DNA of 14,636 nucleotides from an uncultured Roseateles sp. GTDB lineage: Bacteria; Pseudomonadota; Gammaproteobacteria; Burkholderiales; Burkholderiaceae. Positions 1-14,636 of this stretch are shown here, piece by piece. A model generated the notes under the pieces. It did no database searches. It was not told the DNA's origin and saw only the letters and a list, made by a program, of their open reading frames with translations. Each line of letters begins with the position of its first letter. The stretch's first letter is position 1. The stretch is taken from positions 1-14,636 of the forward strand of contig CAMLKW010000104.1 in the NCBI GenBank assembly GCA_946480605.1, read 5' to 3'. A program made the position numbers and the translations under genes.

Positions 1-128
1 ACGGCCCAGCCGGCACCGTGGACGTGGGCCCCGGCCAGGGCGCCGTCATCCCGCCGGGCTTCGAGGGGGAGTTCGAAGTGGTGGAGGCCGTGCGAAAGCA
101 GTTTGTGTTGGTGGACGTGGCGGGCTGA
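1..128 (+). CDS. Cupin-domain protein, C-terminal fragment (5' end outside window)
   Basis: The reading frame is open from base 3 and ends at TGA 126-128, giving the last 41 residues of a protein whose start lies outside the window. The visible part reads GTVDVGPGQGAVIPPGFEGE, followed by a strand ending VRKQFVLVDVAG. The pattern of a Gly-Pro-rich turn, 'IPPGFEG', a short acidic strand and a closing 'RKxFVL' strand is typical of the C-terminal half of cupin_3 (DUF861) small single-domain cupins, which form a beta-barrel and are often linked to amino-acid or ureide metabolism. No metal-binding histidines can be checked because the core of the barrel is missing. It has no evident link with the sugar locus on the opposite strand. 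The cupin call is fairly safe; the exact subfamily and substrate cannot be given. Confidence 0.7.
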   Translation, partial: GPAGTVDVGPGQGAVIPPGFEGEFEVVEAVRKQFVLVDVAG

Positions 129-141
129 GCAGCTTCAGCGG

Positions 142-159
142 CTTGGCGAGCAGGCCAAG
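142..159 (+). terminator. Weak hairpin after the cupin gene, possible terminator
   Basis: A perfect 6-bp inverted repeat, CTTGGC (142-147) and GCCAAG (154-159), with a 6-nt loop, starts 14 nt after the cupin stop codon. It is not followed by a T tract, so it is at best a weak intrinsic terminator. It is listed because it is the only terminator-like structure between the cupin gene and the reversed cassette. Confidence 0.25.
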
Positions 160-264
160 AGATGGTTTCAGGCCGGTCGTAGTCTTTCGCCGGCGTGTTT
201 GGCGACGAGCTGCTCACGATCCGAGCTGCCGGTCCACCACCTTGGGGCCTGCCCGAAAGCAGTC
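160..264. other. Non-coding stretch between cupin gene and attC site
   Basis: No reading frame here looks like a real protein. There is no second attC, no tRNA-like fold and no transposase remnant that I can recognise. It is the outer flank of the cassette, so the attI or neighbouring attC of a once larger array would be expected here; neither is seen. Confidence 0.4.
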
Positions 265-342
265 GCTCAGCGTTTGACATGAGAGGCGGCTTGCTGCTGG
301 CGAAGCCAGCTGTAAGACGTCCTCTCGATGGAAGGGTTAGGC
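265..342 (-). repeat. attC: Integron attC recombination site (59-base-element type), outer core site degenerate
   Basis: Read on the minus strand, the site opens with GCCTAAC (342-336), a perfect match to the RYYYAAC inverse core. Next comes CCATCGAGAGG, then a central GCTGGC-TTC-GCCAGC hairpin, then CCTCTCATGTCAAAC and finally GCTGAGC (271-265) where GTTRRRY is expected. The two inner arms pair as CATCGAGAGG against CATGAGAGG on the other strand, leaving one unpaired C. Such an extrahelical base is the hallmark of folded attC sites recognised by IntI. The 78-bp length is normal for the family. The outer core differs from consensus at its second base (GC instead of GT), which removes the T next to the expected crossover G. 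The site begins 16 nt after the stop of the minus-strand gene, the usual compact layout of a gene cassette. Confidence 0.85.
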
Positions 343-358
343 GCATGCGCGGCGAAGT

Positions 359-832
359 TCATTCGGTGTTTCCCTGCACCCACGCAGCAGCTTGTTCCCC
401 AAGTGCCTGGGAATCTACAACGACTACCACTGGACACGAACCTTCGTCGACTTCGTCGGGGCCTTTGCCGTTATAGAAGGCAAACCACAGAGCCTCTTCC
501 AGAGGCTCATCCTTGTGGCTTGTCGTCATGAGGGTAAAAGGGATTGGCTCACCTAGTTCCGGGAGGAAGGCTGCGTAGTCGAAGGCTTCCTCAACCTCTG
601 GAGAGTTGGGACCCCAGGCGCAAACGTAGACGGCACCGGCCTCCACCCATGCGCGTGCAGCCTCAATCTTGGAGTGCAGCGCCTGGCGGTCGCTCGCCGT
701 GAGAAGCACGTAATTGCCCTGCTGAACAGAGACAGGCAAACATTCCCAAAGGCTCTTCGCCTGAATGATCGTGGCGAGCCTACCGGTGCCGGGATGCTTT
801 AGCGGCAGCTCGACACTGCGCGGACGTTGCAT
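359..832 (-). CDS. Integron cassette-borne hypothetical protein, 157 aa
   Basis: The ATG (832-830) lies 7 nt downstream of a GTTAGGC core site, and the TGA stop lies 16 nt before an attC, so this is the single gene of an integron cassette. There is no Shine-Dalgarno sequence between core site and ATG, as in many cassettes, where translation may be leaderless or depend on upstream transcription. The protein is soluble, with no signal peptide or membrane segment. It has a conserved-looking centre, 'ARAWVEAGAVYVCAWGP' then 'EVEEAFDYAAFLPELGEP', followed by 'TLMTTSHKDEPLEEALWFAF' and a hydrophobic strand 'CPVVVVVD'. It resembles cassette-encoded hypothetical proteins that I recall being grouped as DUF7684, but I cannot confirm that. 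Base composition is visibly less GC-rich than the neighbouring genes, in keeping with transfer. Function unknown; a role in phage defence, toxin immunity or stress would be a guess. Confidence 0.8.
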   Translation of the reverse strand: MQRPRSVELPLKHPGTGRLATIIQAKSLWECLPVSVQQGNYVLLTASDRQALHSKIEAARAWVEAGAVYVCAWGPNSPEVEEAFDYAAFLPELGEPIPFTLMTTSHKDEPLEEALWFAFYNGKGPDEVDEGSCPVVVVVDSQALGEQAAAWVQGNTE

Positions 833-839
833 TGCAGGC

Positions 840-846
840 GCCTAAC
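840..846 (-). repeat. Cassette core site GTTAGGC (cassette insertion boundary)
   Basis: The minus strand reads ACAACAA then GTTAGGC at 846-840, a perfect match to the integron core GTTRRRY. It stands immediately before the cassette gene, where the crossover between attI, or a preceding attC, and the cassette would have occurred. The AACAA just before the core resembles the ends of known attI/attC sites. I see no paired inverse core (RYYYAAC) at the proper distance upstream on this strand, so it is not a complete second attC. Confidence 0.7.
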
Positions 847-1058
847 TTGTTGTATGTAGATCGTTAACGATCACCATATCACTGGACCCATTCAGCTGTC
901 GCTGGACAGAGTCCGCTGCTGGCCGCCAGCAGACCACAAGCATCGGTCAACTGACCGGCAGTGGCCGCTGCAGCGAGGCCTCAGCGGCACTCCCGAATGA
1001 TCCCCGCGCCTGCCCCTACATTTGCAGCCTGCAAACTCGTCCATCGAATGGAGAACTC
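847..1058. other. 212-bp intergenic region with a 14-bp palindrome and small hairpins
   Basis: No credible gene. Visible structures are a perfect palindrome GATCGTTAACGATC at 859-872, a 7-bp stem CTGCTGG/CCAGCAG at 916-932 with a 3-nt loop, a 6-bp stem CGGTCA/TGACCG at 944-957, and a 7-bp stem GCCGCTG/CAGCGGC at 964-988. The region must hold the promoter of the rightward gene at 1059 and lies upstream of the leftward cassette gene. I could not identify convincing -35/-10 pairs for either. It would also be the place for an attI site if an integrase had been present. Confidence 0.45.
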
Positions 1059-1784
1059 TTGAGCAAGACCACGGCCTTTCTGAGCGGCTGCGCGGCCAGC
1101 GCCACCGCCATCATTGCGATCACGCTGCTGACCGGCGCCAAGGCGCCGCCCACCAGGTTCGAGGAGATCGACGTGGGCCGCATCAACGTGCGCGAGCCCG
1201 ACGGCACGCTGCGCATGGTCATCGCCAACCGCGCGCAGTTCCCCGGCCTGCCCTGGAAGGGCGGCGAGAAGCCGCGCCCGGACCGCACGGCCTTCGCCGG
1301 CATGCTGTTCGTCAACGACGAGGGCACCGAGAACGGCGGCCTGATCCAGAAGGGCGTCATCGGCGCCGACGGCAAGCCCGACGCCGGCCTGAGCCTGACC
1401 TTCGACCGCTTCCGCCAGGACCAGGTCATCCAGCTGCTGCATGCCGAGCAGGGCGGCCAGCCGATCAGCACGCTGGTCATCAACGACGAACCCGACGGCA
1501 TGCAGATGGACGTGCTGCAGCGCACCGAGAAGGTCGATGCCGCCTTCAAGCTGGAGCCCGACGCGCGCAAGGCCGCGATCCAGGCGCTGCGCGAGCAGGG
1601 TCAGCTGACGGCCAACCGCGTGCGCCTGGGCACCACGCTCAGCAAGGCCTCGGCGCTGACGCTCAGCGACGCCAGCGGCAAGCCACGGCTGATGCTGATG
1701 GTCACGCCCGACGGCAAGCCCAGCATCCAGTTCCTGGACGACAAGGGCAAGCCAGCCAAGACCATCGACCTGGACACGAAGTAA
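1059..1784 (+). CDS. Conserved hypothetical membrane-anchored periplasmic protein, 241 aa
   Basis: Translation probably starts at TTG 1059, supported by GGAGA at 1050-1054, four bases upstream. No ATG start in this frame would keep the N-terminal hydrophobic segment. Residues 6-27 form one hydrophobic helix without an obvious cleavage motif, so the protein is likely anchored in the inner membrane with about 210 residues in the periplasm. The exported part contains recurring Asp-Gly turn motifs: 'RINVREPDGTLRMVIAN' near residue 40, 'MLFVNDEGTENGGLI' near 86, 'GVIGADGKPDAGLSLTFDRF' near 98, and 'DASGKPRLMLMVTPDGKPS' near the C-terminus. This suggests a repetitive beta-strand fold. Proteins of this type occur in several proteobacterial groups as unnamed hypotheticals. 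It runs towards the sugar operon and ends 6 nt from it, so it is probably not functionally linked. Function unknown. Confidence 0.75.
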   Translation: MSKTTAFLSGCAASATAIIAITLLTGAKAPPTRFEEIDVGRINVREPDGTLRMVIANRAQFPGLPWKGGEKPRPDRTAFAGMLFVNDEGTENGGLIQKGVIGADGKPDAGLSLTFDRFRQDQVIQLLHAEQGGQPISTLVINDEPDGMQMDVLQRTEKVDAAFKLEPDARKAAIQALREQGQLTANRVRLGTTLSKASALTLSDASGKPRLMLMVTPDGKPSIQFLDDKGKPAKTIDLDTK

Positions 1785-1790
1785 GCCGCC

Positions 1791-4700
1791 TCAGCCGAGT
1801 TCTATCGTCCAGCGGCTGGTGCTGCCCGGCGCCGGTCGCGGCAGCGCCAGCGCGCCCATGCGGTAGGCATGGGGCCGGCGCGTGGCCGGCAGCTCGGCGC
1901 CGGCCTCGTCGCGCACGCGCTCCACGCCATGGCCGCGCGGGCCCACGCGGTAGTTCAGCTCGAACTGCAGGTCGGCGAGCTGCACCTGCACCTGCAGGCC
2001 GTCCAGCCGCTGCGGCATCACCGGGTCGATGACCAGTTCGCCCTGCTCCAGCCGCAGGCCCAGCAGCGAGCCGATCACCAGGCCCAGCGCGATGCCGGGG
2101 CCGCTGGAGTAAATGCGCCAGCCGCCGTCCAGCGCGACCTCGCCCGCCAGCGCGCGGCCGTATTCGGCCTGGGCGACATAACGGTCCGGGAAGGCGGCAT
2201 CGGAGCTGGAGTAGTAGCAGTTGGCCTGGCGCAGGCTGGCGCTGGGCACGCGCTCGCGCAGCGCGATGGGGTGGGCCTGCATCAGCGCCTGCAGGAAGGC
2301 CTCGGCATGGCCCAGGTGGGCCAGCATCTGCGCATAGCGCAGGTGGGCGTGCATGTACATGATGCCGATCTCGCGGCCGAAGAAGGTGCTGGTCTCGGCA
2401 CGCTGGAACAGTCGCGACGGCCCGCCGCGGTAGGGCAGCGGCGCGTCGAAGAGGCGGGCGCCGTCGGGGCCCTTCAGGTGCTGCTCGATCAGCGCGGCCT
2501 GGGCGCGCGCCTGCTCGGGCGTCAGCAGGCTGTCGATGACGGCATGCATCATCGGCAGCAGGCTGTAGCGCAGGCCGGTGCGGGTGTCGGCCGGGTGTAT
2601 CCACAGCTCGCGTGCGCCCTGTTCCGGGAACAGCGCATAGCCGGCCACCACGCCGTCCTGCACCAGCAGGCGCTGGAACTCGGCGCGCACGCCGGCCGCC
2701 TCGGCCACCAGCCGCGCCGACTCGTCGCCGCGGCCGATCTGGCCGAACGCGCGCGCCAGCGTGTGCAGCATCTGGTGGTGCAGCGTCACGGTCCAGGCGC
2801 TGCACAGGCGCTCGCGCAGTGCAGCGTCGGCGGGCTGCAGCGAGTCGTTCCAGTCGCCGTGCCAGTAGGCGGCCAGGCCGGTGCCGGGCACCACGCGCTG
2901 GCGGATCAGGCCCAGCGCCCGCTCGACATGCGCCGCCAGCGGTGCAGCGGCTTCGCCATGGAAGGGCAGCGGCTCGTCCAGCACGGCAGCGTCGCCGCTG
3001 GCGATGAGGTATTGCGCCAGCGCCAGCAGCGGCCAGAACACGATGTCGCCATGCGAGTCACCCGCGCGGATGCCGGCCTCGCGCTCGAAGAACATGAACC
3101 ACTGCGGCCAGTCGCCGTCGGGGTTCTGCGCAGCGAAGGTGCGCAGCAGCAGGTCACGCACGGGCACCGTCTGGCCCAGGGCCAGCAGCATCTCCAGCGG
3201 CCCCTGGCAGACGTCACGCGTGCCCCAGCCGCCGCCGGAGTACTGCTCCAGCCCGCGCGGCGACAGGTAGTGCACCAGCGCGTTGTGGGCGTACCAGGGC
3301 AGGATGTCGCGCAGCTGGGCCAGTGCCGCATGGCGCCATTGCGGCAGCGCCAGCGGCTGGGCGGACGGCGGCGCGACCGACAGCAGCTCGCCGCGCAGCG
3401 TCAGCGTGAAGGCATGGCCCGGCGAGAAGTCGAGGCAGACCAGGGGCTCGCCGCGGCTGACGCCGTCGTCGTACAGCCGGCCGTCGTCGCCGACGATGGC
3501 CAGGCCCGGTGCCTCGACGACCAGCGCCCCGCCCGGGAAGCGCTCGGCCAGCGCGCTGCCGGCCGGCGGCGTGATGCGCAGGCGGTCGCCGCTGTGTTCC
3601 CACGCGGGTTTGTGCGGCGCGGCGCCGTCGTCGCCGCCCAGCGCGAGATTCAGGCTGGCGCGCAGGCGCAGGCCGCGCCCCTTCAGCACGCGCAGCGTCA
3701 GCGCCATCTCGTCCGGCACGGCGCCGGCCGAGGCAAGCACTTCGATGACACTACCCGCGTGGGCATAAAGCCAGCGGCACTGCTGCGGCTGCATCTCGAA
3801 GGCAGAGGGCAGATCCAGCAGCTGCCAGTCGGCCATCTGCGGCTGCACGAACAGCCGCAGGCCGGCCGTGCGGAACAGGCCCAACAGGCTGCGCTGCGTG
3901 GACAGCAGCCGGTTGATGCTGACATGGCCCTGGGTCAGCATGGAATGGAACACGCCGGCCATCCAGCAGGTGGAGGTCAGCGCGCCCTCGTCGGGCACGA
4001 GGTGGGCGCCCGCGCGCAGGATGTGGCCGTGCGGACGCTGCACCCGCAGCTCCTTGGCGCGCAGCACGACGTGGCCGGCATCGCCGGTGAAGAAGCTCAA
4101 CAGCCGGCCCGCGTCGTCGCGCTCCTCGTGGCGGCGCTCGCCGGGGAACAGCTCGCTGCAGGCCGCGTCGTCCAGGTCCGCGGCGGCCAGCGGCGCCGCC
4201 GTGGCGAACAGGCTGGCCGCAGGCGGCTGGCCGGGCGCATCCAGCGCCGGGCCGGGCCGCGCCTCGGGCAGCGCCAGCAGCGCGGGCAAGCTGGCCAGGT
4301 CGGCGTCGCCGCTGGCATTGGGGTGATGGGCTTGCAGCGCCAGGAAGAAGCCGGCCGACGTGCTGGCGCCGGGCACCAGCGTGACGGCCTGGTCCTGCAG
4401 CGCCACCACGGCGTGCTCCTGCTGCAGCCGCTCACCCGGCAGGCCGGCCAGCACGGCGGGCGGCACCACGGCGCCGTCGCGGGCCGCATGGCCCCAGACC
4501 TGCGCGGCGTCGGTCGCAAAACTCTCCGCGCGCGCCAGCGAGCCGGCCAGCAGCCAGGGATGTTGACCGCGCTGCGCCTGGTTCTGCCGCACGGCCAGCA
4601 GCGTGCCGTGCTGCGCATGCTGCAGCGGCTGCAGGTCGATGTAGTGGCTGACGTAGAACTCGTTGGTGCGCACGGCGCCGTAGTCGGCCAGGCCCACGTC

Positions 4701-5081
4701 GTGCACCAGCACGGGCGCGATGTCGCAGGCGGTGCCGCTGTCGTTGATGGCCTGCAGATGCCAGAACAGCACCGGCTCGTCAGCCGCCAGCCGCAGCTGC
4801 AGCCGCAGCGCCAGGCCGTCCCAGACGCCGCGCATCTCGAAGGCGTTGTCGCCGACATGCGCGCTCAGTGGCGAATGCGGCCCCAGCAGCGGCACGGCGC
4901 GCCAGTCGCCGCTACCGGCGTCACGGCGGCGCAACCAGAGGTTGGAAGGCCCGCCCTCCAGCTCGTTGCCGGGGAAGAGGTTGAGCAGCAGCCCGGAAGC
5001 GAGCTGCAACCGGCGCAGCGCGCCGTGGGACAGCAGCTCGGCTTCGAGGCCGGCAGCGTTGCGGATCAGGTGCGGTTCCAT
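1791..5081 (-). CDS. GH94 1,2-beta-oligoglucan (sophorooligosaccharide) phosphorylase, 1096 aa
   Basis: Predicted cytoplasmic inverting phosphorylase that splits glucose 1-phosphate from the non-reducing end of beta-1,2-linked glucose oligomers. Residues 1-300 form a beta-sandwich region typical of GH94, and an (alpha/alpha)6 domain spans about 580-1010. The GH94 signature GDWNDSLQP lies at 742-750; by analogy with cellobiose phosphorylase, D746 (after W744-N745) is the general acid. Other family blocks are GGGWGTRDVCQGPLE (616-630) and GDWPQWFMF (656-664). The length matches the known oligoglucan phosphorylases (about 1100 aa) rather than cellobiose phosphorylases (about 800). No signal peptide. 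The start ATG (5081-5079) is 2 nt after the esterase stop and lacks a Shine-Dalgarno, so coupled translation is likely; the frame is open further upstream but would overlap the esterase. It is the last gene of the run. A cyclic-glucan synthase-like phosphorylase domain is the main alternative, but the transferase part is absent. Confidence 0.85.
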   Translation of the reverse strand: MEPHLIRNAAGLEAELLSHGALRRLQLASGLLLNLFPGNELEGGPSNLWLRRRDAGSGDWRAVPLLGPHSPLSAHVGDNAFEMRGVWDGLALRLQLRLAADEPVLFWHLQAINDSGTACDIAPVLVHDVGLADYGAVRTNEFYVSHYIDLQPLQHAQHGTLLAVRQNQAQRGQHPWLLAGSLARAESFATDAAQVWGHAARDGAVVPPAVLAGLPGERLQQEHAVVALQDQAVTLVPGASTSAGFFLALQAHHPNASGDADLASLPALLALPEARPGPALDAPGQPPAASLFATAAPLAAADLDDAACSELFPGERRHEERDDAGRLLSFFTGDAGHVVLRAKELRVQRPHGHILRAGAHLVPDEGALTSTCWMAGVFHSMLTQGHVSINRLLSTQRSLLGLFRTAGLRLFVQPQMADWQLLDLPSAFEMQPQQCRWLYAHAGSVIEVLASAGAVPDEMALTLRVLKGRGLRLRASLNLALGGDDGAAPHKPAWEHSGDRLRITPPAGSALAERFPGGALVVEAPGLAIVGDDGRLYDDGVSRGEPLVCLDFSPGHAFTLTLRGELLSVAPPSAQPLALPQWRHAALAQLRDILPWYAHNALVHYLSPRGLEQYSGGGWGTRDVCQGPLEMLLALGQTVPVRDLLLRTFAAQNPDGDWPQWFMFFEREAGIRAGDSHGDIVFWPLLALAQYLIASGDAAVLDEPLPFHGEAAAPLAAHVERALGLIRQRVVPGTGLAAYWHGDWNDSLQPADAALRERLCSAWTVTLHHQMLHTLARAFGQIGRGDESARLVAEAAGVRAEFQRLLVQDGVVAGYALFPEQGARELWIHPADTRTGLRYSLLPMMHAVIDSLLTPEQARAQAALIEQHLKGPDGARLFDAPLPYRGGPSRLFQRAETSTFFGREIGIMYMHAHLRYAQMLAHLGHAEAFLQALMQAHPIALRERVPSASLRQANCYYSSSDAAFPDRYVAQAEYGRALAGEVALDGGWRIYSSGPGIALGLVIGSLLGLRLEQGELVIDPVMPQRLDGLQVQVQLADLQFELNYRVGPRGHGVERVRDEAGAELPATRRPHAYRMGALALPRPAPGSTSRWTIELG

Positions 5082-5083
5082 GT

Positions 5084-5806
5084 TCAGGTCTGGCGTTGAG
5101 ACAGCAGCCAGGGCAGCAGGTCGGGGTCGTTGTAGGCAGGCGTCCACGAGTCGTGGCCCACGCCGGGATAGATGGTCAGCGAGGCGGTGCCGCCGGCGGC
5201 ACGCAGCGCTTCGACGCAGGCGACGTGCGGCGCCAGCGGCACCACCGTGTCCTGGTCGCCGTGGTAGGCCCGCACGGGCACTGCGCGCATCGCGCCCACC
5301 TTGGCCGGGTCGCCAAAGCCGCAGACTGGCACGATGGCCGCCAGGTCGCGCGGGTGGGCCGTGGCCCAGTGCCACATGCCGAAGCCGCCCATGGACAGGC
5401 CCGTGCCGACGCAGCGCTGCGGGTCCACGTGCAGCCTGGCCTTCAAGGCCACCAGCAGCTTGTGCAGGCGCTCGGGGTCCCAGCGCTGGCCGTCTTCGCA
5501 CTGCGGGCTGACGAGGATGGCGGGCCAGGCCGCGCCGGCGGCCACCAGCTTGGGCGGGCCATGGACCTTGACCTTCTGCAGGTCGGTGCCGCGCTCACCG
5601 GAGCCGTGCAGGAAGATCACCAGCGGCCAGCGCTCGCTGCGCTGCGCGTAGTCGCGCGGCAGCCAGATCCAGAAGCGCTGCCCCTCCAGCTCCCAGGCGC
5701 GCTGCTCGCCTGCGGCCAGGCCATCGGGCACGGTGGGCGGCAACGCCGCGCAGGCGCTCAACAGCGCAGGTGTCGTCAACAGCAACTGGCGGCGGTTCAT
5801 CGTCAT
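5084..5806 (-). CDS. Alpha/beta-hydrolase esterase, predicted lipoprotein, 240 aa
   Basis: Predicted exported serine esterase of the CE1/PHB-depolymerase-like group. The N-terminus (NRRQLLLTTPALLSAC) is a signal peptide with lipobox LSAC and lipidation Cys19. The alpha/beta-hydrolase core has the oxyanion-strand motif FLHGSGERG (65-73), the nucleophile elbow GLSMGG with Ser138, HGDQDTVVP with Asp186, and GVGHDSW with His218, so the catalytic triad appears intact. The first ATG (5806) is preferred because GGAG stands 8 nt upstream (5818-5815); it overlaps the preceding gene by the 4-nt ATGA. It ends 2 nt before the GH94 phosphorylase gene. Within this locus it probably removes ester groups (for example succinyl or acetyl) from periplasmic glucans before hydrolysis or uptake. 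That substrate is inferred from context only; a feruloyl-esterase-like or general carboxylesterase activity cannot be excluded. Confidence 0.8.
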   Translation of the reverse strand: MTMNRRQLLLTTPALLSACAALPPTVPDGLAAGEQRAWELEGQRFWIWLPRDYAQRSERWPLVIFLHGSGERGTDLQKVKVHGPPKLVAAGAAWPAILVSPQCEDGQRWDPERLHKLLVALKARLHVDPQRCVGTGLSMGGFGMWHWATAHPRDLAAIVPVCGFGDPAKVGAMRAVPVRAYHGDQDTVVPLAPHVACVEALRAAGGTASLTIYPGVGHDSWTPAYNDPDLLPWLLSQRQT

Positions 5807-8775
5807 GGCGCGGGCTCCAGATGGATGGTGGTGGCGTGGGCGGGCAGCGGCAGCTCGCGGCCCTGCCAGCTCAACAGCGTGGACTCGACGCTAGCGCGCG
5901 GCAGCGGCGCCGTGCCAGGCCAGGCCAGGCGCAGCTCGCCGGGCAGGCGCTCGGGGCGGCGGTCGATGTGCAGCGTCCAGCCGCCGTCGGCGCGACGCAG
6001 CAGCCGGTAGTCCAGCCGCCCCCAGGCGGTGGACAGGCCCGTCACCGCGATGTCGCCGGCCGCGCGCCAGGCGGGCGACAGGCCGGCTCCCAGCACGATG
6101 GCGCCGCTGGCTTCGCGCTCGTAGGCCAGCAGGTCCAGCGCGGCGCGCAGGTAGTCCGACGAGATCCACGCATGCGGCATGTCGCCCAGGAAGCGCGGCT
6201 CGCGCGCATCGGGCAGCACGACCTCGGCCCAGCTGTGCCAACCGGCCGGCCGCTGGTGCGTGAAGAACCAGGCCAGCAGCCGGTGCGCGTCGTCCACGCG
6301 GCCCAGACGTGCCAGCGCGCTGACGTTGCGCAGCTCGTAGGGCGTGTAGTCGCGCCAAACCTTGGCGCCGCTGATGCGCGCATCGGCCTCACCCACATAG
6401 CGGTCGAAGGTGCCGCGCAGCAGGTCTGCCGGCAGCTTGCCTTCCGCCTGGGCCGGGTTCAGCGCCATCGTCGTGGAGGTCGCATCGAAGTCGCCGCGGT
6501 CGGCGGCACCGGCGATGTGGTCGAGCTTGTAGTGACTTGCCGTGGCCGTGATGGACGCGAACAGATCCGCCTCGAACTCGTCGCGCCAGCCGGCCCAGCG
6601 CTGGGCCAGCGCGGCATCGCCCAGCGCCCGGGCCATCTGCACCGCGTCCTTGTAGCCGCGCAGCGCCCAGAAGTCGTCCCAGTAGGAATAGGCCGGCTTG
6701 TCGCTGTAGCCCTCGTGGCTGATGGACGGCGGCATCAGGCCTTTGAACCTGGGGTCGGCGCCCGGCAGGCGCTCGCTCTGGCGCAGGCCTTCCATCCATG
6801 CCATCACCTTCTGCACCTTGGGCCAGTGGCGATCCAGCTGCGCCCGATCCTGCGTGTGCCGCCACAGCTCGGCGACGGAGAACAGGTACTGGCCGTGGCT
6901 GTCGTTCTCGACGACGGGGTCCGCACCGCGCTGGTCCACGCAGCAGGGCACCTTGCCGGATTCGAAGATGTAGCCGCCGAACCAGTCGACGAACTCGCGC
7001 GCCGCCTTCACCTCGCCCATGCGCACCAGGCCCGCCACCATCATGGCGCCGTCGCGTATCCACGAGCGTGCGTAGGAGCGCGTGCCGGGCCGCAGGGCGG
7101 GGCCCTCGCGAGACATCAGCATCTGTGCCAGCGCGGCGCGCATGGTGTCGACCACGGGCTGGGCCTGTGGCGGCAGCCGCAACTCCAGCACGCCCAGGCG
7201 GTCGCGCCACTGCGCGGCGGCGACGGCGAGGCGCGTGTCCAGCGCTGAGGCCTCGACGGCGCCAGCGCCCGACACCCATCCCAGCGTGCGGGACTGGCCC
7301 GGCGCCAGCTCCACGTCGAAGCGCATGACGGCGGAGGGCAGTCCCTCGGTGTCGGCCAGATGCACGAGCGGCGCGGCCTGCAGCAGCGAGGCCATGCCGG
7401 GGCCGGCACTCCACGGCGCCGCGCGGACCTCGGCCGGCGCTTTGCGCGGCTTCAGGTTCAGGCCCGCGGCGCTGAGCCGGCCATCCGCCCAGGTGATGGT
7501 GGGCAGCGGGCTGATGCCACCGGGGGTGGACAGGAACTGCTGCGGCGGGTTGACCTGCCAGGGGCGCAGCGTCAGCAGCAGCGCGACCCGCTGCGGTTTG
7601 CTCGTCGGATTGCGCAGCGTGTAGCGCGCCAGCAGTTGCGGGTCCTGGGCCTGGCCGTCGGCCCCTGCCTCGATGCGCAGTTCCACGTCCGCATGCCGCC
7701 ACTGCACGACGGGCAGCGCATGCTCGACGAGGCTGTGCTCGGCGCGCACCTGGGCCCAGGTGATGAGGCGGCCATCGGCCAGCCGGATGGTGGGTTCGAT
7801 GCTGGGCCCACCTCGGGTCAGCTCGATGGCGCCGTCTTCGCTGACCAGGCCGGAGCGCTGCGCGCCGCCGTCCACGCCCACGACGGTCCAATAGTTCTGC
7901 TCGCCGATGAAGCCGCGCGGCAACTCGCCACGGGGCAACGCCTTGGCCAACTCGGTCACGGCCGCATTGCGGTCGGGCCATTGCGCGGCATCGCGCAGCT
8001 CGACCTCGGGCGGCTTGCGGCCCTCATGGCGGATGCGCAGCCAGCGCCACTCCTGTTCACCGAGGAATAGCGCGCGGCCCGGGCGCGAAGACAGCAGCTT
8101 CCAGCGCCGGTTGTCGTCCGACACCTCCACCCGCGTGGCCGCGCCATTGGTGAACCACAGCCCGTTGAACTCGCGCAGGCGCTGGAAGTCCAGCGTCACC
8201 TCGCCGCCACCCAGCCTGCGCTTCGGCTCGGGCCACTTGTCGGGCGCCGGCTCGCGCGGCTCCAGGTTCAGCGCGCCGACGCACAGCTGCCCTGCACCGC
8301 CGCCCTGCTGCTGGCCGGCGACGACGACGAACTCGATGAACTGGCTGCGGGCGAGCGTGCGGTCTGTCGTGGGGCCCCAGGCAAACGCAACGTGGCGACG
8401 CTTGAAGCTCATGTCGGTCAGCGTGTCGGGCAGCGCCAGTGCGGGGCGGTTGACCCACCAGACGTTGTCGCCGCTGGCATCGACGAACTTGATCTGCACA
8501 TCGTTGTGCCTGCTGCTGCCCTTGAGCTGCGCGGTCAGCGCGAAGTCGGCGGGCCAGTCCAGCGGCAGCTCGCGACGCAGCACGGCATAGCCGGACACGC
8601 CCGCGAAGTCGTAGTCCAGGCACAGGCTGTCGTCCTTGACGTCACGGCGCAGCGCTGCCTTGACCTGGTCGGAGGCCGTGGCTTTCCAGACGGAGGCGTC
8701 CTTCATGTCGTCCAGCACCGCGGCGCCCGCCAACGGCGCAGCCAGCAGCAGGGCGATGGCAAGAGACTTCTTCAC
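5803..8775 (-). CDS. Exported six-hairpin glycosidase-like protein with N-terminal sugar-binding-like domains, 990 aa (family unassigned)
   Basis: Start is GTG 8775, overlapping the permease stop as GTGA; a GGGAAG ribosome-binding site lies 6 nt upstream. MKKSLAIALLLAAPLAGA is a Sec signal peptide (cleavage near AGA-AV, residue 19). Residues 20-175 look like a beta-sandwich carbohydrate-binding domain and 185-265 like a discoidin (F5/8 type C) domain. About 290-530 is a beta-rich domain as found before (alpha/alpha)6 catalytic domains, and 535-885 is the (alpha/alpha)6 domain. Candidate active-site motifs are RSYARSWIRDGAMM (566-579), VENDSHGQY (622-630), SYWDDFWALRGYKD (697-710) and DMPHAWISSDYLRA (865-878). 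The 'W-I-R-D' block recalls GH15, GH63 and glycogen-debranching enzymes. A beta-sandwich tail follows. It probably acts in the periplasm on the glucan that GH144 and GH94 process, but linkage and family are unknown. The glycosidase call rests on fold-level resemblance only. Confidence 0.75.
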   Translation of the reverse strand: MKKSLAIALLLAAPLAGAAVLDDMKDASVWKATASDQVKAALRRDVKDDSLCLDYDFAGVSGYAVLRRELPLDWPADFALTAQLKGSSRHNDVQIKFVDASGDNVWWVNRPALALPDTLTDMSFKRRHVAFAWGPTTDRTLARSQFIEFVVVAGQQQGGGAGQLCVGALNLEPREPAPDKWPEPKRRLGGGEVTLDFQRLREFNGLWFTNGAATRVEVSDDNRRWKLLSSRPGRALFLGEQEWRWLRIRHEGRKPPEVELRDAAQWPDRNAAVTELAKALPRGELPRGFIGEQNYWTVVGVDGGAQRSGLVSEDGAIELTRGGPSIEPTIRLADGRLITWAQVRAEHSLVEHALPVVQWRHADVELRIEAGADGQAQDPQLLARYTLRNPTSKPQRVALLLTLRPWQVNPPQQFLSTPGGISPLPTITWADGRLSAAGLNLKPRKAPAEVRAAPWSAGPGMASLLQAAPLVHLADTEGLPSAVMRFDVELAPGQSRTLGWVSGAGAVEASALDTRLAVAAAQWRDRLGVLELRLPPQAQPVVDTMRAALAQMLMSREGPALRPGTRSYARSWIRDGAMMVAGLVRMGEVKAAREFVDWFGGYIFESGKVPCCVDQRGADPVVENDSHGQYLFSVAELWRHTQDRAQLDRHWPKVQKVMAWMEGLRQSERLPGADPRFKGLMPPSISHEGYSDKPAYSYWDDFWALRGYKDAVQMARALGDAALAQRWAGWRDEFEADLFASITATASHYKLDHIAGAADRGDFDATSTTMALNPAQAEGKLPADLLRGTFDRYVGEADARISGAKVWRDYTPYELRNVSALARLGRVDDAHRLLAWFFTHQRPAGWHSWAEVVLPDAREPRFLGDMPHAWISSDYLRAALDLLAYEREASGAIVLGAGLSPAWRAAGDIAVTGLSTAWGRLDYRLLRRADGGWTLHIDRRPERLPGELRLAWPGTAPLPRASVESTLLSWQGRELPLPAHATTIHLEPAP

Positions 8776-9578
8776 TTCACGCTTCCCATCAGCAGGCCTT
8801 GCATGTAGTAGCGCTGCAAGGCCACAAACAACACCAGCACCGGCAGCACGGTGATCACCGCGCCGGCCATCATCAGCTCGCTGTCCTGCACGTGTTCACG
8901 AGACAGCGCCGCCAAAGCCACCGGCAGCGTGTGCATGTCGCCATCCGTCAGCACGATCAACGGCCACATGAAATCGTTCCAGCTGCCCAGGAACGCAAAC
9001 ACCGCCAGCGTCACCAGCACCGGCTTCAAGGTCGGCAGCACGATGTTCCAGAAGATGCGCCATTCACCGGCGCCATCCAGCCGCGCCGCTTCCAGCAACT
9101 CGTCGGGCACGCCCCGCGCGTACTGCCGCACGAGGAAGATGCCGAAGATGCCCGCCATCGACGGAATCAGCACGCCCATCCAGGTGTTCACCAGGCCCAT
9201 GCCCTTGAGCATCAGGAACAGCGGCAGCATGGCCACCTGGCCCGGGATCACCAGCGCGGCGATCAGCAGCCCGAACACGCGCTCGCGGTGCCGGAAGCGC
9301 AGCTTGGCGAAGGCATAGCCGGCCAGCGTGTTGAAGCTGACCGAAACAAACGTGGCCACCACCGCCAGCCCCAGGCTGTTGACGAAGGCGCGCTTGAGGC
9401 CGCCGTCGCCCAGCAGCTTCTCGTAGTGCACGAGCGTGGGCTCGCGCGGCAGCAGCGGCGGCGGCAGGCTGGAGGCGCTGCCGGCCGGCATCAGCGACAC
9501 GCAGACCATCCACACCAGCGGAAACACCGCCAGCGCGGCGAAGGCCCACAGCAGCGCGTTGACGAGGAGCTTCTTCAT
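8772..9578 (-). CDS. Sugar ABC transporter permease (MalG/UgpE/MsmG type), 268 aa
   Basis: Inner-membrane permease subunit of a CUT1-family oligosaccharide importer. The protein begins MKKLLVNALLWAFAALAVF, which is the first transmembrane helix; further helices lie near 65-90, 101-122, 132-150, 185-205 and 236-255. The cytoplasmic EAA loop that docks on the ATPase reads EAARLDGAGEWRIFWNIVLP at 163-182, a near-textbook match. The ATG at 9578 overlaps the stop of the other permease gene as ATGA and has a strong GGAGG ribosome-binding site (9587-9583). An in-frame extension upstream is open but would run through the partner permease and is rejected. Its 3' end overlaps the next gene by 4 nt. It forms a heterodimeric channel with the upstream permease; by context it carries beta-1,2-glucooligosaccharides to the cytoplasmic phosphorylase. 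Confidence 0.93.
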   Translation of the reverse strand: MKKLLVNALLWAFAALAVFPLVWMVCVSLMPAGSASSLPPPLLPREPTLVHYEKLLGDGGLKRAFVNSLGLAVVATFVSVSFNTLAGYAFAKLRFRHRERVFGLLIAALVIPGQVAMLPLFLMLKGMGLVNTWMGVLIPSMAGIFGIFLVRQYARGVPDELLEAARLDGAGEWRIFWNIVLPTLKPVLVTLAVFAFLGSWNDFMWPLIVLTDGDMHTLPVALAALSREHVQDSELMMAGAVITVLPVLVLFVALQRYYMQGLLMGSVK

Positions 9579-10468
9579 GCGCCCTCCCCCGTCAGCCGAC
9601 GCTGCAGCGCGATCAGCCCCTTGCTGACCCCCACGATGATGACGAACAGCACGAAGGCCACCGCCGAGGCCAGGCCCAGGTTCCACCACTTGAAGCCTTC
9701 GTCGTACATCAGGTACAGCACGCTGACCGTGCTCTGCAGCGGGCCGCCCTGCGTCATCACATAGGGCTCGGCGAACAGCTGGAAGTAGCCGGCCGTCGTC
9801 AGGATGGTGACCATCAGCAGCGTCGGCGCGATGCTGGGCAGCGTGATGTGTCTGAACTGCGCCCAGGAGCGCGCACCATCCAGCCGCGCGGCTTCGTAGA
9901 GGTCGTGCGGCACCGCCTGCAGCGCGGCGATGAAGATGATCATGTTGCCGCCGAAGTTCTTCCAAGCCGCGAAGCCGATGATGGTGGGCATGGACCAGTG
10001 CGGGTCGCCCAGCCAGTCGATGGGATCGATGCCCAGCGATTGCAGCGTGTAGTTCACCAGCCCGTACTTGACGTGGAACAGGTAGCGCCAGATGACGGCC
10101 ACGGCCACCAGCGTCGTCACCACCGGCGCGAACAGCGCCGTGCGCAGCAGCGGCTTGAAGCGCACCAGCTTGCTCTGCAGCAGCACCGCCGCGGCCAGCG
10201 ACAGGACGATGGACAGCGGCACGCCCAGCACGACGAAATAGGCCGTATTGCCCAGCGCCTGCCAGAACAGCGGCATGGACAGCACCTGCACATAGTTGTC
10301 CCAGCCCTGCCAGCGCAGGTTGCGCAGATCGGCCAGCGCGTAGATGTCGAAGTCGGTCAGGCTCAGCGCGAGGCCGGCAAACACCGGCACGCCGAAGAAC
10401 AGCGCGATGACGATCAGCGCCGGAGCGGCGAAGGCCCAGCCGGCCAGGGATTCCTTGCTGGCGCTCAT
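9575..10468 (-). CDS. Sugar ABC transporter permease (MalF/UgpA/MsmF type), 297 aa
   Basis: Partner permease of the CUT1-type sugar importer. The first membrane helix starts at about residue 10 (GWAFAAPALIVIALFFG), and the periplasmic loop contains the family's 'LSLTDFDIY...NY' segment. Helices near 75-98, 108-128, 162-184, 214-232 and 264-284 follow. The EAA loop EAARLDGARSWAQFRHITLP at 192-211 contacts the ATPase. An AGGAAG ribosome-binding site (10479-10474) lies 5 nt before the ATG, which overlaps the binding-protein stop as ATGA. The TGA stop overlaps the start of the second permease in the same way. This order (binding protein, F-type permease, G-type permease) is standard for the family. 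The ATPase gene is not in the window. Substrate by context: sophorooligosaccharides. Confidence 0.93.
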   Translation of the reverse strand: MSASKESLAGWAFAAPALIVIALFFGVPVFAGLALSLTDFDIYALADLRNLRWQGWDNYVQVLSMPLFWQALGNTAYFVVLGVPLSIVLSLAAAVLLQSKLVRFKPLLRTALFAPVVTTLVAVAVIWRYLFHVKYGLVNYTLQSLGIDPIDWLGDPHWSMPTIIGFAAWKNFGGNMIIFIAALQAVPHDLYEAARLDGARSWAQFRHITLPSIAPTLLMVTILTTAGYFQLFAEPYVMTQGGPLQSTVSVLYLMYDEGFKWWNLGLASAVAFVLFVIIVGVSKGLIALQRRLTGEGA

Positions 10469-11736
10469 GCGGTCTTCCTGTCCAGCATCCAGCGGCGCTT
10501 CTCCAGGATGCCATCCACGCGTGCATCCAGGCCGCGCACGGCGGCGTCAATGGGCTCGCGTCCTCCGACCACGCGCGCCGCGGCCAGCTGCATCTCGTTG
10601 GCGATGCGCTCCCACTCGGGCACGGCCGGCGTGGGGCGCACGCGCTCCAGCTGGCGGCGGAAGGCCGCGGCGTGGCGGTCCTCGGCCAGCGTGGCGCCGC
10701 CTTCCAGCGGCATGGCCCAGGTGCTGCGCCGCGGCGGCAGGTCGCCGGTCAGGCGGTAAAACTGCTGCTGCACGTCGGGCCGACTCAGGTAGCTGATAAG
10801 CGCCCAGGCCTGGGGCTTGTGGCGCGAGCGCTTGAACATCGCGAGGCTGGCACCGCCGGCGACGGACGCGCCCAGGCCGCTCGGCCCGGGCAGCTCCGCG
10901 GTGGTCCACGCATCGTCCAGTTCGGCCGGCAGGCGGCGCTTGAACTCGCCGATGTTCCACGGGCCCGAGATGTAGAACGCGAACGTGCCGCGCCCGAACT
11001 CCTGCCAGAGGTTGGCGACCTGGTTGTTGGTCAGCCCCGGCGCATCGCCGCGCTCGAAGCGCTCGGCGTAGAAGCCCAAGGCGCGGCGGAAGTCGGGCGA
11101 CGAGAAGTTGCCGAAGCGGCCGCCGTCGCGCAGCACCTCGCCCGGCTGCTGCAGCGCCAGCGCCAGCAGCGGCTCGAACTCGTTGGTGGGCAGCAGGATG
11201 GGCGTGGCCATGCCGTGCTCGCGCAGGCGGGTCAGCGCGTTGCGCCACTCGTCCCAGTCCTGCGGTATGCGCGGGATGCCGGCGCGCTTCAGCAGGTCCT
11301 GCCGCACGAACAGCAGCCGCGTGTCCACATACCAGGGCAGGCCCACGCGCTGGCCGTCGGGCGCGTTGGTGGCCCAGATGCCGTCGAAGTAGTCGGCCGG
11401 TTGCAGCAGGGGCGTGCGCGCGATCCACGGGTCCAGCGGCTCCAGCGCACCGAGCGCCTGCATCTCGGGCAGCCAGGTGTTGCCGACCTGGGCGAGGTCG
11501 GGCGTGGCGTCGCCGGCAAAGGCCGTCAGCAGCTTCTCGTGCGCGGCGGTCCACGGCAGCTGCTCGACCTTGACGCGCACGGTGGGGTGCTCGCGCTCGA
11601 AGCCGGCGATCAGCTCGGACGCAACCTCGGCCTCGCGGCCCATGGCCCAGAAGCGCAGCGTGGTGGTGCCGGTGTCGCGGGCGCAGCCTGTCAAAGCTGC
11701 TGCGCCCGCGGCGGTGAGGAGACTGCGACGGCGCAT
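10465..11736 (-). CDS. Sugar ABC transporter substrate-binding lipoprotein, 423 aa
   Basis: Extracytoplasmic solute-binding protein of family 1 (MalE/UgpB-like), anchored by lipid. MRRRSLLTAAGAAALTGC carries a twin-arginine-like start and lipobox LTGC with Cys18. The mature part opens with TTTLRFWAMGREAE, the usual first strand and helix of this family. Further family features are 'TPDLAQVGNTWLPEM' (near 78-92), 'GLPWYVDTRLLFVRQDLL' (131-148), 'GTFAFYISGPWNIGEF' and 'VAGGASLAMFKRS' in the second lobe. Length is normal. The gene begins 8 nt after the GH144 stop with no clear Shine-Dalgarno, suggesting coupling, and overlaps the first permease by ATGA. By analogy with the Listeria innocua oligoglucan cluster, where a binding protein and permeases accompany the phosphorylase, the ligand is likely beta-1,2-glucooligosaccharide; that is context inference, not read from binding residues. 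Confidence 0.9.
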   Translation of the reverse strand: MRRRSLLTAAGAAALTGCARDTGTTTLRFWAMGREAEVASELIAGFEREHPTVRVKVEQLPWTAAHEKLLTAFAGDATPDLAQVGNTWLPEMQALGALEPLDPWIARTPLLQPADYFDGIWATNAPDGQRVGLPWYVDTRLLFVRQDLLKRAGIPRIPQDWDEWRNALTRLREHGMATPILLPTNEFEPLLALALQQPGEVLRDGGRFGNFSSPDFRRALGFYAERFERGDAPGLTNNQVANLWQEFGRGTFAFYISGPWNIGEFKRRLPAELDDAWTTAELPGPSGLGASVAGGASLAMFKRSRHKPQAWALISYLSRPDVQQQFYRLTGDLPPRRSTWAMPLEGGATLAEDRHAAAFRRQLERVRPTPAVPEWERIANEMQLAAARVVGGREPIDAAVRGLDARVDGILEKRRWMLDRKTA

Positions 11737-11744
11737 GAACGAGA

Positions 11745-13163
11745 TCAGCCCAGCCAGCCGCCCGTGAAACCCGCGCGCTTCAAACCGCGCACCAGATGCG
11801 CGTTCTTGCGCATCACCTGCCAGATCAGCTCGCCCTTGTGGTTGCCCATCATGGCCAGCATGGGGCCTTGGTCTATGCCCAGCATGTCGGTGTCCACCCA
11901 GCCCTTGCCGGGTTCGATGCGGCCGTGCTGCAGCTTCACGTCGGCGTAGTCGAAGCTGGGGTTGAACGAGTCCCAGAAGCCGTAGCGGCCCCAGGAGTGC
12001 GGGTAGCGCTGCTTGATGGCCATCAACGCGGGAATGCAGATCTCCGGCGCGAAGGCGATGGAGCTGCCGGCCGCATAGGGCGCCAGCGTGCCGTCGTCAT
12101 GCTCACCCATGCCTCGGCCGGCATAGCTGATGAAGCGGCGCTGCTCGACCTTGCCCGTGGTGGTCTTGTAGGGCCGCGTGACGTCGGCCGGGCCGTCGCT
12201 GGCGCTGACGCCCCAGACCTCGGCGCTATAGCCCTGCCAGCCCAGCGGGTTGGCGGCGGCATAGGCCTGTTGCGCGTAGGTGGCGCGGCGCGAGTTCTCG
12301 AAGTAGTCCAGGCCCTTTTTACGCATGTAGGCGTCGCGGATGCCGCGGAAGTCCACCCAGCAGTGCGTGAACTGGTGGCCGAACAGCGGCGGGAAGCGCA
12401 GCAGGCTGTGGCCGTAGCTCTCGCCCCAGCTGCGGTCGTAGGTGCTGAGCCAGGCGTCATAGGCCTCCGCCTTGACCGGCCGCGTGGGCGAACCCAGCGC
12501 CAGCAGGTAGACCATCATGGCCTCGTTGTAGCCCTTCCAGTCGTTGGGGATGTGACCCTTCTCGGGCGTCCAGCCGTGGCCGATGGACGGCGGGCGCACC
12601 TGGGCCCAGGCCCAGTCGACGCGGCCGTACAACTCGTCCACGAGGCTGCGGATGCTGGCCTCTTCGGGCTGCTCGGCATCGAAGAAGCTCTGCGCGTGCA
12701 ATGCGCCCATCAGCAGCAGCGCGGTGTCCACCGTGGACAGCTCGCAGCCGCCGAAGCGCAGCCCTTCCTTCATGTCGAGGAAGTGATAGAAAAAGCCCTT
12801 GTAGCCGGCCACGCCGGTCTTGCCCGGGCCTTGCGGCAGGCCGGCGAAGAAGCGCAGCGTCGTCAGCGTGCGGTCGCGCGCCTGGGTGCGCGTGATGTAG
12901 CCGCGCGCCACGCCCACCGGATAGGCGCTGAGCGCGAAGCCGACGGCCGCAATGCTGGCGAACGAGGGCGTGGGCCAGCGGTCCGGCGCGAGTCCGGTCC
13001 TCGCGTCGGTCGTGTCCCAGAAGAAGTCGAAGGTGCGGCGTTCGAGGTCGGCCAGGAAGGCCTCGGCGCCCGGGGAGGCGGGGGCGGCCCAGGCCGGCTG
13101 GGTGGCGGCCAGCGCCAGGCCGGCGCCTTGCGCCAGCAGCGCGCGTCGTGTCAGCAGATCCAT
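11745..13163 (-). CDS. GH144 endo-beta-1,2-glucanase (exported), 472 aa
   Basis: Predicted periplasmic endo-hydrolase that cuts beta-1,2-glucan into sophorooligosaccharides. It shows the 'glucoamylase-like' (PF10091) domain on which GH144 is founded: FFYHFLDM (124-131), CELSTVDTALLLMGAL (140-155), DWKGYNEAMM (208-217), FGHQFTHCWVDFRGI (261-275), YFENSRRATYAQQAYAAANP (287-306) and GMGEHDDGTLAPYAA (351-365). E141, D146 and E214 are the likely catalytic-cleft acids. The N-terminus LLTRRALLAQGAG with cleavage after AWA (residue 26) is a probable Tat signal. I chose ATG 13163; a TTG 12 nt upstream (13175) is also in frame, and neither has a clear Shine-Dalgarno. Length fits the family. It lies 55 nt after the receptor gene with a hairpin between, and 8 nt before the binding-protein gene. 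Automated pipelines often name such proteins glucoamylase, which I consider misleading. Confidence 0.88.
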   Translation of the reverse strand: MDLLTRRALLAQGAGLALAATQPAWAAPASPGAEAFLADLERRTFDFFWDTTDARTGLAPDRWPTPSFASIAAVGFALSAYPVGVARGYITRTQARDRTLTTLRFFAGLPQGPGKTGVAGYKGFFYHFLDMKEGLRFGGCELSTVDTALLLMGALHAQSFFDAEQPEEASIRSLVDELYGRVDWAWAQVRPPSIGHGWTPEKGHIPNDWKGYNEAMMVYLLALGSPTRPVKAEAYDAWLSTYDRSWGESYGHSLLRFPPLFGHQFTHCWVDFRGIRDAYMRKKGLDYFENSRRATYAQQAYAAANPLGWQGYSAEVWGVSASDGPADVTRPYKTTTGKVEQRRFISYAGRGMGEHDDGTLAPYAAGSSIAFAPEICIPALMAIKQRYPHSWGRYGFWDSFNPSFDYADVKLQHGRIEPGKGWVDTDMLGIDQGPMLAMMGNHKGELIWQVMRKNAHLVRGLKRAGFTGGWLG

Positions 13164-13179
13164 GATGTGAAGCAATTGT

Positions 13180-13218: not shown

Positions 13219-14636
13219 TCAGAACTTGTAGCTCAGGACCAGGCGCACGGTACGGTTGTCGCCACGGATGGCGTTGGGCTTGCCGACGTTGAGGTTGTCG
13301 CCGCCGTACTGGTTGGCCTTGCCGCCGGCACCGACGGGACCGCCGCCCCAGTCGTCGAAGCCACCGTAGTTCTCGACGCCGAACACGTTGAGCACATCGC
13401 CGCGCAGCGTGAAGCGGTGCTGACCGAAGCCCAACTCCTTGCCCAAGCTCAGGTCCACCTGGCGGAAGCTGGGCGCGTCGCCCTCGACGTAGACGCACTG
13501 GTTCCAGCCCGCGGCGCAGGACGTGACCCGGCGCGGCATGCCGCTGGCCCAGGTGGCCTTGGTCGAGAAGGTCATGCCCCAGGGCAGCAGCTTGTCGGTC
13601 ATGAAGGCGCCGACGATGCGGTGCTTGTCGACCAGCGTGCTGGGGTTGTAGCCACGATTGGGCTTGCCCACGGTCCAGTCGAAGATGTCGTTGGTCCACT
13701 CCTTGTTGGTGGTCTTGGCATCGCTGTAGGTGTAGGCGATGGTGGCCGTCCAGCCCGACGCGGCGGTGTAGGGCTTCTCCAGCTTGCCGTAGATGGAATC
13801 GGTCTTGCTGGCGCCGACGAAGTCGCCCAGGATCAGCGTGCCGAAGCCGTTCGGGCCGCCCCACAGCGGGTCGATGGGGCTTTGCGTGGCCCAGCCGCCG
13901 TTGGCGTCGCGGTTGCCGCCGTACCAGGTGAACTGGTTCTTGGCGTGCACGCGGCCGACGGCGATCTCGCCGTTCCAGCCGCCCAGCGCCTGGCGCAGGC
14001 CGAAGGTCAGCTGGTCGGCATAGGGCATCTTGAACTCATTGCGGATCAGCCAGATCTCGCCGCCCGGCGACGCGTTCTTCTGCATCTCGTCCAGCGCATG
14101 GTTGGCCATCGTGCGGTCATAGCTGCGGCCCCAGCCGCCGAACAGCACGCTGTTGCGGTCGCCCAGCACGTCGAACGAGAAGCCGACGCGCGGCGCGAAC
14201 GCGCCCTTGTAGGCGCTGCGCGAGTTGCCGGTGGCGATGAAGTCGTCGATGTTGATGCCGCCCTTGGCCAGCGACTGCGCATAGGTCTGGCCGGCCGGCG
14301 GCGTGATGCCGTAGCGCGGCACGTCCAGCGCCTTCAGCGCGGCGACGCGGTCGGCCGGCGTCTTGTAGTCGTTGTTCAACATGTTGTCCTCGTAGTCGTA
14401 GCGGACCCCGAGGTTCAGCTCCAGCTGCGGCGTGACGGTCCAGTCGTCCTGCAGATAGAAGCCGTACTGCTTGTTGCTGAAGTTGACGCCGACAGGCGCC
14501 AGCGCACGGTCGATCTTGCACTGGTCGCTGTTGGCGCCGTTGTTGGTGATGTTGGGGCCGGTGCAGCTGCTGCCGCTGTAGACCGGGTTGCCACTGGTGC
14601 GGTCGATCAGAACCTCGACGATGTCGACGGAGCGGG
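13219..14636 (-). CDS. TonB-dependent outer-membrane receptor, C-terminal 471 aa (5' end outside window)
   Basis: The frame is open from the window edge to TGA 13221-13219, so the N-terminal plug and TonB box are missing and the true start is beyond 14636. The visible part is a beta-barrel: amphipathic strands such as QYGFYLQDDWTVTPQLELNL followed by GVRYDYEDN, periodic aromatic residues, and a final strand VRLVLSYKF ending in Phe, the signal for outer-membrane assembly. 'LRGDVLNVFGVENYGGF' near the end is the usual penultimate barrel segment. The style matches the large Oar-like / carboxypeptidase-regulatory-domain receptors common in Xanthomonadales and Burkholderiales. As the first visible gene of the run it probably imports the large glucan across the outer membrane. 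Two cysteine pairs in loops (around CTGPN/DQCK and TSCAAGWNQC) may form disulfides. The substrate is inferred from neighbours. Confidence 0.88.
   Translation of the reverse strand, partial: RSVDIVEVLIDRTSGNPVYSGSSCTGPNITNNGANSDQCKIDRALAPVGVNFSNKQYGFYLQDDWTVTPQLELNLGVRYDYEDNMLNNDYKTPADRVAALKALDVPRYGITPPAGQTYAQSLAKGGINIDDFIATGNSRSAYKGAFAPRVGFSFDVLGDRNSVLFGGWGRSYDRTMANHALDEMQKNASPGGEIWLIRNEFKMPYADQLTFGLRQALGGWNGEIAVGRVHAKNQFTWYGGNRDANGGWATQSPIDPLWGGPNGFGTLILGDFVGASKTDSIYGKLEKPYTAASGWTATIAYTYSDAKTTNKEWTNDIFDWTVGKPNRGYNPSTLVDKHRIVGAFMTDKLLPWGMTFSTKATWASGMPRRVTSCAAGWNQCVYVEGDAPSFRQVDLSLGKELGFGQHRFTLRGDVLNVFGVENYGGFDDWGGGPVGAGGKANQYGGDNLNVGKPNAIRGDNRTVRLVLSYKF

Follow-up and report, generated by a model that had tools for sequence, protein, structure and literature searches.

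Gene content of the locus

The DNA analyzed here, a stretch of 14,636 nucleotides from an uncultured Roseateles sp. (assembly GCA_946480605.1, contig CAMLKW010000104.1), is referred to as the window. Its minus strand carries the gene for a protein of 990 amino acids (aa), here called six990, which resembles glycoside hydrolase (GH) family 15. The open reading frame (ORF) starts with GTG and overlaps by four bases both the permease gene upstream and the alpha/beta-hydrolase gene downstream; it is a real and conserved gene. Along the minus strand the genes follow each other in the order TonB receptor (cut by the window end), GH144, ATP-binding cassette (ABC) binding protein, two permeases, six990, alpha/beta-hydrolase and SOGP-type GH94. 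As described in the initial annotation, six990 looks exported, has an (alpha/alpha)6-type domain and is part of a locus for beta-1,2-glucan: a signal peptide recognized by eye, the predicted model and the neighbouring GH144 and SOGP genes agree with this. All features are reported in Table 1.

Relatives were collected by a scan of genome contigs, which found 417 of them, the best 80 being retained as loci, and by a protein search, in which at least 7,320 of the 7,998 candidates scored reached E <= 1e-3, with 120 listed. Among the matches listed, names for members of the family are "hypothetical", "discoidin domain-containing" and "coagulation factor 5/8 type domain".

Table 1. Position of six990, its predicted parts and the neighbouring genes in the window (pLDDT: predicted local distance difference test)
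Feature	Position	Strand	Basis
six990, 990-aa exported GH15-like (alpha/alpha)6 protein	5803..8775	-	ORF calls, AlphaFold model, relatives
Apparent Sec signal peptide, residues 1-18	8722..8775	-	sequence by eye; low pLDDT at residues 1-4 and 9-14
CBM11-like beta-sandwich domain, residues about 18-182	8230..8724	-	
F5/8-type C / CBM32-like domain, residues about 183-285	7921..8229	-	family profile matches CBM32-type chains
Beta-sandwich before the barrel, residues about 286-535	7171..7920	-	secondary structure of model
(alpha/alpha)6 barrel, residues about 536-885	6121..7170	-	predicted model and fold matches
W572-I-R574-D575-G, GH15-type -1 subsite motif	7048..7062	-	aligned with GH15 W-x-R-D
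E688, proposed general acid, in the loop that joins barrel helices 5 and 6	6712..6714	-	conservation, model
E851, proposed general base, loop preceding last barrel helix	6223..6225	-	GH15 alignment, conservation
TonB-dependent receptor, C-terminal part, truncated at window end	13219..14634	-	
GH144-type protein, presumed beta-1,2-glucanase partner	11745..13175	-	PF10091
Sugar ABC solute-binding protein, lipoprotein-like signal	10465..11736	-	signal judged by eye
ABC permease 1	9575..10468	-	
ABC permease 2, C-terminal part of ORF 8772-10550	8772..9578	-	start picked by eye
Alpha/beta-hydrolase, possible deacylase for substituted glucan	5084..5806	-	role inferred
SOGP-type GH94, 1,2-beta-oligoglucan phosphorylase	1791..5081	-	SOGP_N and SOGP_2nd above cut-off

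Predicted domains and fold

The AlphaFold model of six990 has a pLDDT of 90.6, and the protein is presumably located in the periplasm. PF00754, corresponding to the CBM32-like domain, scores above cut-off in relatives and is undetected in a Pfam scan of the window protein alone. In the barrel, DSSP assigns 11 regular helices from residue 536 onward; one more, near 757-777, is poorly formed (low pLDDT), and the last barrel helix is hence counted as alpha12.

The top structural matches of the model are GH15 enzymes, headed by dextran dextrinase (DDase) and isomaltose glucohydrolase; GH65, GH116, GH125, GH78 and GH95 are also among the fold matches. The beta-sandwich plus (alpha/alpha)6 catalytic fold of GH15 is found in the predicted model, which shares it with DDase (9JU0) and Arthrobacter glucodextranase (1UG9); with Kribbella isomaltose glucohydrolase (5Z3A) the likeness is in the barrel. 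The beta-sandwich falls inside the structural alignments, from residue 293 with DDase and from residue 286 with the GH65 structure 7fe3. Identity to GH15 is about 13-16% in these alignments, and the two added binding domains set six990 apart from that family. Relatives of six990 also give sub-threshold Pfam matches to PF17389 and GH95.

As the closest fold is that of DDase, a retaining transglucosidase, six990 might itself be a retaining transglycosylase or disproportionating enzyme, remodelling the imported glucan; mechanisms are, moreover, not separable from sequence alone (PMC12446779). Yet six990 has no counterpart of the Gly-Glu dyad reported in the DDase cluster and its loci look degradative, so that this activity appears improbable.

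Comparison with known families

Neither Pfam nor NCBIfam contains a family for which six990 passes the cut-off. The failure to place the protein in a family, already reported in the initial annotation, is thus confirmed, and assignment to a characterized family, named there as contrary to its hypothesis, did not occur in these scans. Sub-threshold NCBIfam matches were obtained to TreH1 and TIGR01577, both of which we take to be GH15-type. A single-sequence search of the PDB gave no match. In the Pfam scan, six990 does not match PF00723 (GH15, gathering cut-off 22 bits; one relative, L084, scores 15.3 bits), PF22422 (GH63 / MGH1-like), PF10091 (GH144) or PF17167 and the SOGP domains (GH94).

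Profiles were then compared by HHalign. The GH15 set was drawn from the sampled genomes of Pseudomonadota; of 30 loci retrieved, L092, L096 and L100 were left out, which gave 27 proteins. Against this set, the six990 profile enriched with distant relatives reaches a probability of 96.4 over 366 columns, with similarity running along the barrel. The strongest local match is to the GH63-like set, 97.6, where just 95 columns align well (residues about 572-667); a single distant relative matches PF22422, with a score below the Pfam threshold. A search with GDE_C yielded one locus, which was not used for comparison. The two comparison sets are themselves similar (GH63-like vs GH15, 96.5), while SOGP vs GH15 scores 0.8.

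GH144 enzymes are (alpha/alpha)6 barrels too, and share with six990 the locus and the presumed pathway. Membership of six990 in GH144 or GH94 is rejected, given the absence of Pfam matches and HHalign probabilities of about 1% for GH144 (0.1-1.2 for GH144, MalG, solute-binding protein and TonB sets) and 17-23% for GH94/SOGP (SOGP 23). The same values, below those of the full GH15 set (95-96%), speak against the idea that the fold houses a beta-specific enzyme, acting on the beta-1,6-glucosyl side chains of E. coli-type osmoregulated periplasmic glucan (OPG) or cutting beta-1,2 chains from the end, with release of sophorose or glucose. Exo cleavage of beta-1,2 bonds is also presumably carried out by SOGP, GH1 or GH3, depending on the lineage; beta specificity is therefore regarded as rather unlikely.

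Two results limit the weight of the GH15 profile score. The narrower A1 profile scores 95.5 against all 27 GH15 proteins, but 35 against the 23 typical ones and 3 when the set is restricted to the four that resemble glucodextranase; because the score depends on the sets, the link to GH15 is best carried by fold and motifs, to which the profile score lends support. Furthermore, a sister family, described below, scores 1.7 against the 27 proteins and so features no GH15 profile similarity, which slightly lowers our confidence. The best reading is that six990 belongs to an undescribed, GH15-like family within a known fold class, set apart on the basis of Pfam and NCBIfam.

Candidate catalytic residues

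The initial annotation had likened the W-I-R-D motif to GH15. The likeness is real: Y-x3-W-x-R-D, which marks the -1 subsite, is present in all 27 GH15 proteins used and in the six990 family. Conservation was evaluated on an alignment of 82 proteins (84 rows minus two distant ones), in which 78 of the 80 loci are represented, low ORF coverage having excluded L009 and L015. Y568, W572, R574, E623, D625, E688, W699, D700, E851 and H868 are conserved in 82 out of 82, D575 in 81; ten checked residues, E688 and E851 among them, are kept in all 120 listed close proteins, the window's own included. The acidic blocks pointed out in the initial annotation are thus retained, and their loss in close homologues was not seen.

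The residues proposed there for mutation, D575, E623 and D625, are a different matter. As a catalytic pair they were rejected: D575 matches the sugar-binding Asp of GH15, and E623 and D625 lie just before helix 626-641. D575 is more likely, by alignment, a sugar-binding residue of the -1 subsite, and the catalytic pair is probably E688/E851, as judged from conservation and the predicted model. E851 is located between helices 827-839 and 869-883, in the alpha11-alpha12 loop where GH15 enzymes have their base, and is aligned with the GH15 base Glu; in a forced full-length alignment it also falls near the MGH1-type base Glu. The general acid of GH15 sits in the alpha5-alpha6 loop (PMC12446779), and the invariant E688, between helices 644-667 and 694-717 of the model, occupies the same loop. 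HHalign, however, does not place E688 on the GH15 acid, and the local similarity (WEE-x-x-GYSPST in glucodextranase-like GH15, SHEGYS in six990) is suggestive only. D700, equally invariant, is a less likely general acid: it lies within helix 694-717, and a distant relative, L142, does without it. The same relative has a Glu near the position of E688, with a one-residue gap.

Association with GH144

A GH144 gene is found upstream of six990 in 70 of the 80 loci, at distances from about 3.1 kb upward and with a median of about 5 kb. For the remaining 10, the contig offers just 3 to 3,117 upstream bases. Independently of linkage, 398 Pseudomonadota genomes were sampled, scoring at most two candidates per genome, so that some may have been missed. 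PF10091 is present in 71 of them: 36 contain GH144-sized strong matches (>200 bits) and 35 weak matches alone, nearly all within frames of 2,100-3,000 aa, which are presumably cyclic-glucan-synthase-like. Six990 or a paralogue (E <= 1e-30) is present in 12 genomes, all of them within the 36, where 1.1 would be expected by chance (hypergeometric 4e-14, kinship ignored; 5e-13 when the centre genome, chosen for carrying six990, is left out). In ten carriers the two genes lie no more than about 7 kb apart and in one they are on separate contigs; the last (G485) features only a paralogue, not linked. Six990 thus tracks the GH144 beta-1,2-glucanase across genomes, while 24 of the 36 GH144 genomes are without six990.

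Three carriers from Paucibacter and Roseateles (L012, L013, L016), which are among the 10 loci with short upstream sequence, are a true exception to the pairing: no GH144 or SOGP match was found anywhere in their genomes, and the scanned neighbours of six990 are ordinary genes. They would suit a self-sufficient exo enzyme, namely an alpha-glucosidase of GH15-like mechanism that removes other alpha-glucose from the non-reducing end, either decorations of beta-1,2-glucan or accompanying short alpha-gluco-oligosaccharides. The GH15 hydrolases covered by PMC12446779 do act on non-reducing terminal linkages. A distant relative in Methylosinus, 32% identical, adjoins both SOGP and a GH15, which points the same way. 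This explanation leaves the tracking of GH144 unaccounted for, and no alpha-glucosyl decoration of these glucans is known to us: on balance it is unlikely.

Neighbourhoods in other lineages

The pairing of six990 with GH144 survives rearrangement. In three genomes of the phylum of L018, six990 is divergent to the TonB, GH144 and binding protein genes, with LacI in between in two; in L141, where the stretch covered extends far enough, permeases and a GH1 follow. In Croceibacterium six990 comes immediately after GH144, with a GH3 near; the annotation of this stretch, which is incomplete, lists no ABC gene. The cluster of Xanthomonas sacchari adjoins zwf, glk, pgl, edd and ugpC, and so lies in a neighbourhood of glucose catabolism. 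Six990 is retained where the presumed beta-1,2 exo-enzyme changes: SOGP occurs in 25 of the 80 loci, and other clusters show GH1, GH3 or no such enzyme. This speaks for a separate role of six990.

Matches to MdoG (OpgG/OpgD) at E <= 1e-10 are absent from 10 of the 11 carrier genomes checked. This suggests scavenging of foreign glucan rather than a role in maturing or turning over the OPG that the cell itself makes. The latter finds some support in the one Xanthomonas carrier (G001) where MdoG is present, but the cluster, with its LacI, TonB receptor and importer, does not look suited to it, and little probability is assigned to it.

Other genes near six990 are less constant. The alpha/beta-hydrolase gene, which in the window overlaps the end of six990 and precedes SOGP, is present in 16 of the 80 loci; its product may strip acyl groups from OPG. 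A phosphodiesterase was considered as a conserved neighbour and rejected: among the 80 loci, an Exo_endo_phos protein directly follows six990 only in L079 (13141-14118), L080 and L039, all Xanthomonadaceae, in L039 as part of a longer open frame. The protein perhaps removes phosphoryl substituents of OPG. Six alphaproteobacterial loci contain an Exo_endo_phos copy 7-9 kb from six990. At the far end of the window, a small protein with DUF7684 is encoded at 359-832 on the minus strand.

Distant relatives

A second subfamily (L190-L196 and L146:11554-14427) shows 32-35% identity to six990 and identical active-site residues, with no adjoining GH144; its N-terminus is signal-like, by eye, in three of the four sequences read. 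The Methylosinus gene that adjoins SOGP and a GH15 belongs to this subfamily. A Methylocystis relative, 34% identical, has no sugar gene annotated nearby. On a plasmid of Xanthomonas sacchari R1 (L148, about 9001-11871) an unannotated six990 copy matches in three pieces, as either a broken gene or an assembly error.

A search with the distant relative L143 as query led to the sister family: 356 proteins, 120 of them listed (P0127-P0246), about 835 aa long and homologous to six990 (HHalign 99.9% over 670 columns). All 120 have Glu at the position of E688 and keep D700 as well as the residues of W-x-R-D. A W-x-E-Q-H motif, found in 119 and equated with E851, is less certain: MAFFT aligns E851 elsewhere, and the placement of the HHalign gap is open. 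Unlike six990, 15 sister sequences read have no obvious signal peptide, and the one neighbourhood read has no glucan context. Named sources include Chloroflexota and Streptomyces; no Pfam domain is listed for the 120 proteins.

Proposed function

Taken together, the data lead us to a tentative preference: six990 would be a periplasmic hydrolase of an undescribed GH15-like family, working in beta-1,2-glucan scavenging, most plausibly an inverting alpha-glucosidase directed at an alpha-1,6 bond. In the proposed pathway, the outer-membrane receptor would import OPG from other bacteria, GH144 would cleave the beta-1,2 backbone, and six990 would remove a bond beyond the reach of GH144 and of the beta-1,2 exo-enzymes; the sophoro-oligosaccharides would be imported by the ABC transporter and finished by SOGP, or by GH1 or GH3 elsewhere. 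The order of these steps, like the acid residue, the inverting mechanism, the alpha specificity and the alpha-1,6 target, is inferred.

The candidate target is the single alpha-1,6 bond of alpha-1,6-cyclised beta-1,2-glucans, either in the ring or in fragments generated by GH144. These glucans are listed for Ralstonia, Xanthomonas and Cereibacter in the part consulted of PMC11842490. The proposal has circumstantial support: a single bond of the ring is expected to resist beta-1,2 enzymes, the structures closest in fold are those of GH15 enzymes with alpha-1,6 chemistry, and six990 is kept where the enzymes for beta-1,2 exo-cleavage change. The glucose in the -1 subsite would be held by W572, R574 and D575, the last one through O4 and O6 of the sugar, with E688 protonating the glycosidic oxygen and E851 activating the water, so that the anomer would be inverted. 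The alpha-linked glucose of the ring has free O3, O4 and O6, which would suit the conserved R574/D575 contacts; its O2 is substituted, and the pocket is therefore predicted to be open at O2.

In the sections available of PMC11228985, an enzyme making alpha-1,6-cyclised beta-1,2-glucan was reported in 2024, XccOpgD, a GH186 alpha-1,6-cyclised glucohexadecaose synthase, and no ring-opening enzyme is described there. It forms the presumed bond of six990, in the opposite direction, and belongs to a family other than that of six990, the same MdoG family missing from most carriers. Further beta-1,2-glucanase families related to GH144 are described in parts of PMC12102758, and numbered GH192-194 in parts of PMC12369401; Roseateles, Pelomonas, discoidin and GH15 do not occur in the main text of PMC12102758. 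Searches confined to the open PubMed Central literature (subscription papers, preprints and CAZy being outside their scope) showed no description of the six990 family, nor of an enzyme opening alpha-1,6-cyclised beta-1,2-glucan. In its most specific and bolder form, somewhat unlikely as a whole, the proposal is that six990 founds a new GH family: a GH15-like alpha-1,6-glucanase with an open -1 subsite, which linearises alpha-1,6-cyclised beta-1,2-glucans as the degradative counterpart of the GH186 cyclase, in a widespread OPG-scavenging locus.

If six990 does open the ring, the degradation pathway would be complete and a tool for analysing these glucans would become available; a function would be named for a family of at least 7,320 database proteins. 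Even if the bond is a different one, the family is a well-bounded target, with a single operon and few candidate residues.

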